From positions 1 to 21,854 of IMG/VR virus record IMGVR_UViG_3300036715_001049: a stretch of DNA of 21,854 bases, one strand, 5' to 3'. Origin of the DNA: a virus. Position numbers and translations under genes: made by a program. Positions 15,980-18,476 of the stretch are shown one piece after another. Below the pieces are notes generated by a model. That model was given only the letters and a program-made list of their open reading frames with translations. It was not told the DNA's origin and ran no database searches. Position 1 is the first letter of the stretch; every line of letters starts with the position of its first letter.

Positions 15980-16170
15980 TCAATCCCGGCCTTCACCCCT
16001 TCGATCCGCGCGCGTTGTTCGGCTGCTTGGCGGTGGCGGGCGAAGGCTTGGGCAACCGCGTCTATATCGAGTTCCCAGTATCCATCGCAAGACATGACAT
16101 TGGCCGCGCTTATAGCTTCCTCCGCCATTTCATAATCCCCCGTCACCAAAAGCGCTGTGTTCTCGGTCAT
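15850..16170 (-). CDS. Hypothetical phage protein, reading frame apparently broken near its middle
   Basis: ATG 16170-16168 with AAGGAG upstream, overlapping the HNH stop as ATGA. The frame is open for 106 codons, but only residues 1-66 ('MTENTALLVTGDYEMAEEAI' to 'VKAGIEAG') look natural; residues 67-106 become basic and Cys/Phe-mixed with 'RRCVSTKPKRFSRQNTPPT'. In the -1 frame from 15979 a more natural protein continues (see the next entry) and ends exactly at the ATGA overlap with the following gene. So the true product is probably about 117 residues, with a frameshift in the G-run at 15976-15973. It could be a mutation, a sequencing error or programmed slippage. No known family; the joined protein ends with a C-x2-C motif. 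Confidence 0.6.
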   Translation of the reverse strand: MTENTALLVTGDYEMAEEAISAANVMSCDGYWELDIDAVAQAFARHRQAAEQRARIEGVKAGIEAGRRCVSTKPKRFSRQNTPPTNRFHQFKSGLLAVCVGTLSAT

Positions 16171-16607
16171 GTCGGCTCCTTGAGTGCTGCGATTGCTGAC
16201 AAGTCGCGCGATGCCTGAATTGCCTTGTCGCGCCAGTAGTGCAACCGAGCGGTTTCGTTTATGTGCAAAGGCTCGTCGCGCTGCACCTTGTCATTGGTAT
16301 TGTTCTGGACCGTTCCGAAATAGAGGTGCGCCGGATTGCAGCAAGCAGGGTTGTCGCAAGTGTGCAGGGCCAGCATCCCGAACGGTTCTTCGCGCTTTGT
16401 TGCGATCAGCGCCAAGCGGCTCGCTGTGACGTTGCAATAGCTGGCAAGCTTGAACCGGCCATAACCATTTTGATTGAGACTAGCTTGCCAGCGCCAACAT
16501 TCATCGGGGCCGCGCATATCCACCTTGGACCAAAAGCGCATGATGCGCAGTTTACCAATTGGCCCTTCAAGATAGGGCAGAATCGACTTAGGGAGCGGGT
16601 CAGCCAT
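16167..16607 (-). CDS. HNH endonuclease, homing type (146 aa)
   Basis: Start at ATG 16607-16605 with AGGAGGTGCAAT directly upstream; the longer in-frame extension crosses the tRNA fragment and attP region and is not credible. The HNH signature is seen as 'CWRWQAS' (C37-W-x-W40) with 'GYGRF' (48-52), then 'LHTCDNPACCNPAHLYFGT' (81-99) and 'NNTND' (102-106), the beta-beta-alpha metal fold with H82, N91 and H94. Such free-standing phage HNH enzymes cut one or both strands of DNA. The position where many relatives have AHR reads ASR, a small departure. First gene of a - strand cluster beyond attP, probably a mobile or moron gene. Confidence 0.88.
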   Translation of the reverse strand: MADPLPKSILPYLEGPIGKLRIMRFWSKVDMRGPDECWRWQASLNQNGYGRFKLASYCNVTASRLALIATKREEPFGMLALHTCDNPACCNPAHLYFGTVQNNTNDKVQRDEPLHINETARLHYWRDKAIQASRDLSAIAALKEPT

Positions 16608-16671: not shown

Positions 16672-16702
16672 GTTTTGTGTGACCAGGAATGTGCCGCCAG
16701 TG

Positions 16703-16738
16703 TGTCGCACTGTGCCGCTTGTTGCCGCACTGTTCCGC
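16703..16738. repeat. Two near-identical 16-bp repeats beside attP
   Basis: TGTCGCACTGTGCCGC (16703-16718) and TGCCGCACTGTTCCGC (16723-16738) differ at two positions and are spaced 20 bp apart; a third partial copy TGTGCCGCC lies at about 16690-16698. The regular spacing, two helical turns, suggests protein-binding sites, for example integrase arm or excisionase sites, or operators for the HNH promoter. Confidence 0.5.
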
Positions 16739-16778
16739 CAAGGCGTTGACGGATACCGGGCTTCAACCTAACGAAAGC

Positions 16779-16874
16779 GGCAGAAGTCCTAGTGTGCGCC
16801 CGTAGCTCAGCCGGATAGAGCACCAGATTCCTAATCTCGTGTTCAAGGTAGCACAAACTGGCAGAAGTCCTAGT
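16779..16874. other. attP: Presumed phage attachment site attP, bracketed by 15-bp direct repeats
   Basis: The exact repeat GGCAGAAGTCCTAGT occurs at 16779-16793 and again at 16860-16874, 81 bp apart. Between them lies a 42-nt identity to the 5' half of a tRNA-Arg. The right copy ends on the integrase stop codon, so the integrase gene abuts the site, the normal order for tyrosine-integrase phages. The repeats may be integrase arm-type sites; the core is probably the anticodon stem-loop of the tRNA fragment. No attB can be seen in this window, so the exact core is unproven. Confidence 0.65.
16796..16837 (+). other. tRNA-Arg(CCU) 5' fragment, not a complete tRNA
   Basis: The stretch reads as tRNA 5' arm GCGCCCG, then D-arm GCTC/GAGC (16805-16808 and 16817-16821 region), then anticodon arm CCAGA with loop TTCCTAA and anticodon CCT at 16830-16832. 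The 3' strand of the stem keeps only TCT (16835-16837) before diverging. There is no variable loop, T-arm or acceptor 3' strand, so it cannot fold into a tRNA. It is the part shared with the host gene at the attachment site. Confidence 0.75.
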
Positions 16875-17884
16875 CATTTCTCGCCTGTTCCGGTGGATTG
16901 TGACTCGGAATGTGACCAAACCATTTCGGATATGCGGTCAAAGGCTGTTTTGTGCTGCGCCGGTTCAATGTGGGCATAGCGCATGGTCACCGAGATATTC
17001 GAGTGGCCAAGCGCTTCGCAAATGTCAGCCAGATCGGCACCGCTCATGCGCGCCCAGCTTGCAAAGGTATGGCGCAAATCATGGAACCGGAAGTTCTCAA
17101 GACCGGCGCGCTTAACCGCGTTCTGCCAGCGTCTGCGGAAGTTGGTAGTGTCGAACACCTTGCCGCGCCGGTCGGTGACTGTAGCAAGCGCCGCGCGGGC
17201 TTCCGAAGTCAGCCGGACGCTGTGCATGTGATCGCCTTTGACCGCGACCGTAATGCGCGAGCTGGATAGATCCACTTCGCGCCAATCAAGGTAGAGCAGG
17301 TTTGCTTTGCGCAGTCCGGTCGCCACGGCCATCTTGACCAGCTTTTGCAATTCTGGATCGCAGACCGAAAGCAGAAATGCGTATTCATCGCGGCTCAGGA
17401 AGCGGATGCGGTTAGGCGGCTCTGGCAGCTTGATCCGCGACCATGCCAAGGCAGGTATTTGCTGTCCGTGCATTTGATTGGCATGATTGAGCGCCGCTAG
17501 CAGGCAGGCATAATCCCGATTGACCCCGTGCGCCTGCAAGCCCTCGCCGCGCCGGGTCGCGCGGTAGTCGAGCAACATGGCGTTGGTTAGGTGCATGATC
17601 GGCAACTCAGGGCCAAGGATGCGGGATAGCGCGTCGAGCTTGGCGAATATGCTAGGGGCCGACTTGCGCTCCTTGCCCCGCTCGTTCCAATAGCTGCCAA
17701 GGCAATCCCGCAGCCGCCAAGCATCCTTATCTGTTTTGCGATTCTTGGCATCATGGCGCTTGTTTGCCTCGACTATCGCGGCTTCGCGCTTCCCCGTGCA
17801 GCCCGTGCTTCCTCGAAGTCGAATACCGTTGACGGCAAACGAGTATTGCCAGAACGGGGAGCCTTCGCGCTTATAGAGAGGCAT
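16874..17884 (-). CDS. int: Tyrosine integrase
   Basis: 336 residues, start ATG 17884-17882. N-terminal part (1-50) is a SAM-like arm-binding region ('GSPFWQYSFAVNGIRLRGSTG'), then a core-binding region (55-145), then the catalytic domain with R192 ('ATGLRKANLLYL'), K216 ('AVKGD'), H268-x2-R271 ('FHDLRHTFASW'), H294 ('GHSNIS') and the nucleophile Y303 ('MRYAH'). All catalytic residues are present. It recombines attP with the host tRNA-Arg attB. Its stop touches the right direct repeat. It is the last gene of the early - strand operon and its first 112 nt overlap the excisionase-like gene, so expression is tied to that operon unless an internal promoter exists. Confidence 0.95.
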   Translation of the reverse strand: MPLYKREGSPFWQYSFAVNGIRLRGSTGCTGKREAAIVEANKRHDAKNRKTDKDAWRLRDCLGSYWNERGKERKSAPSIFAKLDALSRILGPELPIMHLTNAMLLDYRATRRGEGLQAHGVNRDYACLLAALNHANQMHGQQIPALAWSRIKLPEPPNRIRFLSRDEYAFLLSVCDPELQKLVKMAVATGLRKANLLYLDWREVDLSSSRITVAVKGDHMHSVRLTSEARAALATVTDRRGKVFDTTNFRRRWQNAVKRAGLENFRFHDLRHTFASWARMSGADLADICEALGHSNISVTMRYAHIEPAQHKTAFDRISEMVWSHSESQSTGTGEK

Positions 17885-18045
17885 TCTCGCGCCCTTTCGA
17901 CAAATTGGCTTAGATCGTCTTGTGAATAACGAATGGTGCGCCCGAAGCGAATGAAAGGCAACGCGCCGTCCTGGCGGGCCTTGCGCAGGGTCCGCACGCA
18001 GACCTTGAGCGTGTCAGCCGCTTCGGCCTCGGTGAGCAGCGCCAT
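17773..18045 (-). CDS. Excisionase-like small DNA-binding protein (HTH, MerR/Xis type)
   Basis: Start at ATG 18045-18043 (or the GTG just before it at 18048), overlapping the DUF1367 stop. The 90-residue product has a winged helix-turn-helix of the excisionase type at residues 4-53: 'LLTEAEAADTLKVCVRTLRK', then 'ARQDGALPFIRFGRTIRYSQ' and 'DDLSQFVER'. Such proteins bend attachment DNA and turn integrase towards excision. Its last 112 nt overlap the integrase start, and the C-terminal tail (55-90) is low-complexity Arg/Ala/Ser, which suggests that the overlap is tolerated there. An alternative is a small regulator of the operon. Confidence 0.78.
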   Translation of the reverse strand: MALLTEAEAADTLKVCVRTLRKARQDGALPFIRFGRTIRYSQDDLSQFVERARECLSISAKAPRSGNTRLPSTVFDFEEARAARGSAKPR

Positions 18046-18476
18046 CACGCCGCAAACCCCTCAACCGCTTCCCTGATCGCCTCATTATCGGCGGGAAGCC
18101 ACCAGCGTTGCACCGCCTTTACGGCAGCATCATAAAACGGCTCAAATTCCTGCTGGTTCATGCTGGCGAAATTGATGCTATCGGGCGCGAATATCTCCCG
18201 CGATGCCCCTTCCAGCTTGATCCAGCGGCCATGTCCGAGCGTGGCTTTGACAGCGAGCAGCACGTCATCCGGCCCGCTGAATTGCTCGCAGTTGTCGGCA
18301 ACGATGCCCAGGAGCGCGAACATCTTGCGGTGATGCTGCGGATTGCGTGGGCGCGAGGCTTGCATGGCGACGGTCTGGCCAAGTTTGGTCCCGGCGTGAA
18401 ATTCGCGGGCCGCTGCGCTGACGGGTTGCCAGCCCTGCAATGTCTTTCGGACATGTTGGGGCGCTGTTTTAGCCAC
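18045..18476 (-). CDS. DUF1367 family protein (143 aa)
   Basis: Start chosen at GTG 18476-18474, just inside the end of the previous gene (stop 18471-18469), giving 'MAKTAPQHVRKTLQGWQPVS'; an upstream in-frame start (18611) would overlap by 140 nt. The features known from DUF1367 are visible: the N-terminal 'VRKTLQGWQPV', 'RPRNPQHHRKMFALLGIVADNCEQF' at about 45-70, and the C-terminal 'EFEPFYDAAVKAVQRWW'. DUF1367 proteins are phage proteins of unknown function found near recombination and replication genes. Here the order HNH, DUF1367, excisionase, integrase is preserved with overlaps. Role unknown. Confidence 0.82.
   Translation of the reverse strand: MAKTAPQHVRKTLQGWQPVSAAAREFHAGTKLGQTVAMQASRPRNPQHHRKMFALLGIVADNCEQFSGPDDVLLAVKATLGHGRWIKLEGASREIFAPDSINFASMNQQEFEPFYDAAVKAVQRWWLPADNEAIREAVEGFAA

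Follow-up and report, generated by a model that had tools for sequence, protein, structure and literature searches.

The 21,854-base linear virus record analysed here (the window) very probably carries the attP of a temperate Sphingomonadales (Erythrobacteraceae-like) phage, which would rebuild the host tRNA-Arg(CCU) gene from a phage-borne 5' half and a promoter-like element. Judging from sequence comparison, the phage belongs to a lineage that is fixed on this 5'-half mode and has the promoter-like element nested in a conserved attP, a combination that seems to be new. In the usual account of phages that target tRNA genes, the host promoter stays in charge; if the element acts as a promoter, this lineage appears to take over transcription of the host tRNA gene in each lysogen.

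Anatomy of the attachment region

The features of the region are listed below by window coordinates and strand, with their basis in brackets.

16167-16607, minus: HNH endonuclease, left of attP (PHROG 1872, E=4.6e-23)
16678-16716, plus: left arm of attP with four TGTGHC sites (16678, 16690, 16701 and 16711), spacing 12/11/10 (shared by 8/8 main-clade members)
16746-16774, plus: promoter-like TTGACG-N17-TAACGA, directed at the tRNA 5' half (motif conservation)
16774-16793, plus: 20-nt direct repeat, left copy, within the predicted leader that separates the -10 from the tRNA (repeat search)
16796-16837, plus: tRNA-Arg(CCU) 5' half, 42 nt, putative attP core and gene-rebuilding half (identity, in-silico recombination)
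16855-16874, plus: 20-nt direct repeat, right copy, with its final base in the int stop codon (repeat search)
16874-17884, minus: 336-aa tyrosine integrase, convergent with the tRNA half (PF00589, E=4e-27)
16899-16916, plus: right arm of attP with a TGTGAC pair at 12-bp spacing (16899 and 16911), within the int 3' end (conserved pair)
17773-18048, minus: small HTH_17 protein, overlapping the int start by ~110 nt (PF12728, E=1.5e-11)

From left to right, attP comprises four TGTGHC sites, the promoter-like element, the tRNA 5' half and two TGTGHC sites in the int end. The TGTGHC sites are probably integrase arm-type sites. The spacing of the four left sites is kept in all eight main-clade members examined (window, L027, G001, G511, G171, G374, G002 and G617), and the array occurs once in the window with 0 expected. 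The right-arm pair, within or adjoining the int 3' end, was present in 8/8 main-clade members examined and in G405 and L005 too. In two relatives, L170 and L040, the arms carry CGGGACTATTCCGGGA-like repeats in place of TGTGHC, which are probably the arm sites of a sister clade.

The predicted attP covers ~16678-16916 and is bigger than first noted. The limits of 16779-16874 that the preliminary description gave lie inside it, but mostly follow the 20-nt direct repeat. This repeat was dropped as a candidate integrase arm site, since its positions (-22 and +60) are common to relative L027 only, while the TGTGHC arrays are conserved throughout.

Left of attP lie genes for a major head protein (truncated at the record end), a virion protein, an endolysin and the HNH endonuclease, and right of it those for the integrase, the HTH protein, a NinB-like protein, an SSB, an exonuclease and an Erf-like protein. 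With structural and lysis genes on one side and recombination genes on the other, the site is a free attP and not a prophage end, in line with the earlier reading of the window as a non-integrated phage genome. The int 3' end faces the tRNA half, and the attP core lies outside int, whose end is overlapped by the right arm sites alone. By its position, which resembles that of orf36 in phage D3, the HTH_17 protein may possibly be an excisionase. The HNH endonuclease shares 61% identity with the gene adjoining attP in Sphingopyxis phage VSN-002; this neighbour is not conserved, being absent from the main-clade loci tested, and VSN-002 alone has one.

The tRNA-Arg(CCU) 5' half

Bases 16796-16837 equal nucleotides 1-42 of a tRNA-Arg with anticodon CCT and diverge beyond this point. 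The fragment, GCGCCCG-TA-GCTC-AGCCGGATA-GAGC-A-CCAGA-TTCCTAA-TCT, consists of the acceptor 5' strand, the D arm and the anticodon stem-loop with CCT. ARAGORN detected no complete tRNA in the window, which as a record is a 21.9-kb fragment.

The intact tRNA-Arg(CCT) gene of Allopontixanthobacter sediminis matches the fragment at 42/42 nt from nucleotide 1 (G001:C1:728302-728343). The exact 42-mer was found in 3 of 398 genomes of the A. sediminis family, each time in an intact tRNA-Arg(CCT), and alignment to these identical host genes confirms the preliminary assignment of the fragment as the first 42 nt of tRNA-Arg(CCU). The same 42-mer gave 0 matches in the viral contig scan, and a DNA similarity search with attP against phage records gave 0 matches as well. 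When the window attP was joined in silico with the A. sediminis attB at position 39, a complete tRNA-Arg(CCT) resulted at attR and none at attL.

Integrated relatives and the point of exchange

Relatives of the window integrase were found at 72, 62, 61 and 48-49% identity. The closest, on viral contig L027 (72%), has the same layout of arm sites, TTGACG-N17-TACCGA, tRNA-Arg(CCT) 5' half and int. The nearest integrated one is that of A. sediminis G001 (62%), in a prophage of ~40 kb with attL at 114848(+) and attR at 155186(+). There, a host tRNA-Arg(TCT) 5' half lies beside int with host sequence upstream, and a complete tRNA-Arg(TCT) lies ~40 kb away with phage sequence ahead of it.

Further prophages were delimited in Novosphingobium silvae G002 (Thr-TGT, ends 131922/107242) and, at Arg-CCT, in G171 (164624/126047), G374 (879642/884627), G599 (29596/68542) and G617 (5749/46352). 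G511 (Arg-TCT) and G405 (Pro-TGG) show the same two-ended layout with the ends on different contigs. In each integrated relative, ARAGORN detected a complete tRNA at attR, while attL gave none. The displaced 5' fragment of G001, G171, G002, G374, G599 and G617 precedes the restored tRNA and shares its orientation, with the integrase in between, and int is unbroken in integrated relatives, G001 among them. In G171, G374, G599 and G617, the gene that precedes the stranded half has an end similar to that of the gene preceding the intact N. silvae tRNA-Arg(CCT), which marks this flank as host DNA; the likeness was judged by eye, as were several half and orientation labels, from printed sequence.

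The attL and attR sites of the integrated relatives are identical from tRNA nucleotide 1. They first differ at position 40 in G511, at ~40 in G002 and at 42-43 in G374, G617, G001 and others, so that the exchange falls 5' of position 40. In G599 they differ once at position 9 and again at 40; the lower limit of the exchange derives from the single difference at position 9, which possibly reflects later drift. Strand exchange most likely takes place in the anticodon loop (33-39), which is consistent with the crossover proposed in the preliminary description.

Taken together, the anatomy suggests the following course. The integrase would carry out recombination between two anticodon stem-loops, one in attP and one in the host tRNA-Arg(CCU) gene, at exchange points that we place by inference. 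The left arm of the phage (promoter, leader and tRNA nucleotides 1 to ~39) would join the host 3' half, and a complete tRNA would be rebuilt at the prophage end far from int, as the sequences of the relatives show for their own sites. The hybrid tRNA would be transcribed from the phage promoter, and the host promoter with the host 5' half would be stranded next to int, directed against its 3' end.

Two other readings of the fragment have to be weighed against an attP with a tRNA 5' half. It could be a relic or a transduced tRNA piece, with the real attachment core elsewhere. No specific evidence favours such a relic, though the genomes searched contained no integrated copy of the window's own phage; wherever the ends of a relative were located, the tRNA 5' half marks both prophage ends, and it is framed by conserved arm sites, making a relic highly improbable. 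Equally, a canonical 3'-half integration might have been misread through the orientation of the tRNA. Integrases farther from that of the window do carry 3' halves (L034, L036, L039, L041, G756; phages D3, Medea1, Cruim01 and Musica), but the window fragment has the acceptor 5' strand and the D arm, with neither T arm nor 3' acceptor strand, and we regard a misreading of this kind as next to impossible. An attP carrying the 5' half, as originally proposed, is thus supported by the prophages of the integrase relatives, in which the host 5' half adjoins int and a complete hybrid tRNA lies at the opposite end. The expected prophage split at the tRNA with attL and attR was recovered in these relatives and not for the phage of the window itself. 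Neither an intact tRNA-Arg gene accompanied by the phage at another locus nor a relic origin of the 42-nt match was seen.

The promoter-like element

The preliminary description had argued that a phage supplying the 5' half must also supply a promoter. Indeed, promoter-like TTGACG-N17-TA precedes the 5' half in the window, and such an element does so in most relatives, including ones found without use of the motif. Of 13 upstream regions supplied by phages, 9 contain TTGAC[AG]-N17-TA, where dinucleotide shuffles predict 0.015; this figure overstates independence, as the motif was spotted in the same sequences and these are related.

A cleaner test used the four-site TGTGHC array as the sole query against 2.9 million viral contigs, leaving the promoter motif unused. 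It returned 12 contigs, 10 of which have a tRNA 5' half just downstream, preceded in 8 of the 10 by TTGAC[AG]-N17-TA. One of the matches is L027 again. Seven further contigs are attR sites, and all seven (7/7) have a complete tRNA (Arg-CCT, Arg-TCT or Thr-TGT) as well as the motif, which lies 27-28 nt past the array; two of the array-scan contigs, L174 and L181, are near copies of one another. L183 and L184 are attP sites that pair the array with a 5' half. The remaining matches, L178 and L185, are TGTGAC-rich repeats without a tRNA and were set aside as unrelated.

The hexamer and the 17-bp spacing are conserved although the spacer sequence varies. The -10 of the window fits TATAAT poorly past TA. 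A generic sigma-70 scorer proposed an N18 register for the window and G374, which we set aside, the fixed N17 being the register common to the relatives. Host tRNA promoters scanned in the same way resemble the motif (e.g. TTGACC-N17-TAGAGC, TTGCCT-N17-TAGAGG). The distance from motif end to tRNA is 20-32 nt in the phage-supplied regions versus 9-11 nt in most host tRNA promoters scored.

One tRNA-Arg(TCT) gene was detected in G001 and one tRNA-Thr(TGT) gene in G002, each behind phage sequence, and one would expect both tRNAs to be essential. These sole detected copies are presumably expressed from the phage side, and transcription of the hybrid tRNA from a phage promoter gains weight from them. 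The lysogens sequenced to date imply that the phage promoter must work, and we infer that the hybrid tRNA is transcribed from TTGACG-N17-TA.

It is conceivable that attP does carry the 5' half while the hybrid tRNA is read through from other phage promoters and the TTGACG motif serves another purpose. The motif is missing from L183, L184 and the Pro-targeting relatives G405, L005, L040 and VSN-002, as read-through would allow. Against it, the hexamer and its spacing are kept between differing spacers, with the motif in 16 upstream regions, 7 of them located independently of it; host tRNA promoters look similar in the same scan; and the neighbouring HNH gene, being divergent, is not expected to provide read-through. 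We consider read-through quite unlikely and favour the TTGACG element as the promoter of the hybrid tRNA. A literature search on phage-supplied tRNA promoters in 5'-half phages found no report among the papers covered.

tRNA halves among related integrases

In a tree of 32 integrases, some branches of which are weakly supported, the inner clade around the window uses 5' halves only, wherever the site is known. L003, unlabelled in the tree, also carries a 5' half (L183 is the same contig). A separate tRNA-Pro(TGG) clade is mixed, with 5' halves in L040 and VSN-002 and a 3' half in L036, and the minimum number of polarity changes on the tree is four. L036 carries the opposite half of the same tRNA-Pro(TGG) to VSN-002 (L170) and L040; the fragment is on the int-distal arm in both L036 and VSN-002, with the tRNA flipped. 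Since the anticodon stem is a dyad, a polarity change may require no more than use of the integrase core in the opposite direction.

Two relatives, PP496355 (L005) and VSN-002, have tRNA-Pro(TGG) 5' halves in circular genomes. The 'telomere resolvase' of VSN-002 (MZ127829.1) is a relative of the window integrase with the 5' half directly after it, and looks like an integrase with its attP and not a telomere resolvase. L005 is Microcystis phage Mvi-Yong1342-1 (PP496355.1); its integrase groups with those of sphingomonad phages and its attP has the tRNA-Pro half, so that its host may be an alphaproteobacterium in the Microcystis culture.

More distant relatives show other arrangements. L046 has an apparent tRNA-Thr(CGT) 5' half that is int-proximal, with the tRNA directed away from int, and the integrase of L041 adjoins a 3' half resembling tRNA-Sec. 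In L165 (G756), a tRNA-Pro 3' fragment is present several times, in tandem-like fashion, next to the integrase at bases ~500-760; the copies are possibly traces of repeated integrations.

Discussion

The lineage, its sister clade with both polarities at Pro-UGG and the attP signature offer a test bed for the choice of tRNA half and for polarity change, and the compact signature picks out new members of the lineage.

An antisense effect of the stranded host promoter on int is possible. The promoter-like element sits between the integrase arm sites and the crossover, and a more speculative scheme, which we hold to be unlikely, is that assembly of the recombination complex switches off the tRNA made from the phage promoter, while the stranded host promoter gives antisense int RNA in the lysogen. 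If true, tRNA supply, integrase silencing and excision would be coupled.

The use of 5' halves is uncommon among known elements. Islander lists 3,760 islands with 3' fragments and 159 with 5' fragments, of 3,919 (PMC4383910), and a passage of PMC6563490, citing Zhao and Williams 2002, describes recombination with the tRNA 5' region as much rarer. The Islander 5' tDNA islands resemble the window lineage in having a tyrosine integrase, a crossover in the anticodon region and a displaced 5' fragment upstream of the restored tRNA. As listed, these cases are scattered (PMC4383910), whereas here a single phage integrase lineage uses 5' halves throughout, with a stereotyped attP that includes the promoter-like element.

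Recombinant bacterial tRNAs use their original promoter with very few exceptions (PMC8371274). Archaeal pTN3-like elements use the tRNA 5' half as their site and have the recombinant tRNA transcribed from the integrase promoter (PMC8371274); expression from element sequence is what we propose here, too. In those elements, integration splits int, and the int promoter drives the tRNA (PMC8371274), whereas in the window lineage int stays whole and is convergent with the tRNA half, and the attP core lies past the int stop codon.

Pseudomonas phage D3, which targets tRNA-Ser, shares with the window an integrase of 28% identity, an HTH gene overlapping int and an attP directly after int. D3-type phages keep a 3' half between crossover and int, that is int-proximal, and retain the host promoter, while the window phage carries a 5' half. 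In the tRNA-dependent lysogeny of mycobacteriophages, integration likewise falls in the anticodon region and the phage supplies transcription of a needed tRNA (PMC10865867). Those phages encode a whole separate tRNA and the host gene is not rebuilt (PMC10865867), in contrast to the window, where ARAGORN detected no whole tRNA. Finally, integration of ICEKp1 beside a tRNA also alters which promoter faces int (PMC13023037). In ICEKp1 the host tRNA promoter drives int (PMC13023037), whereas in the window lineage the stranded host promoter would be directed against it.
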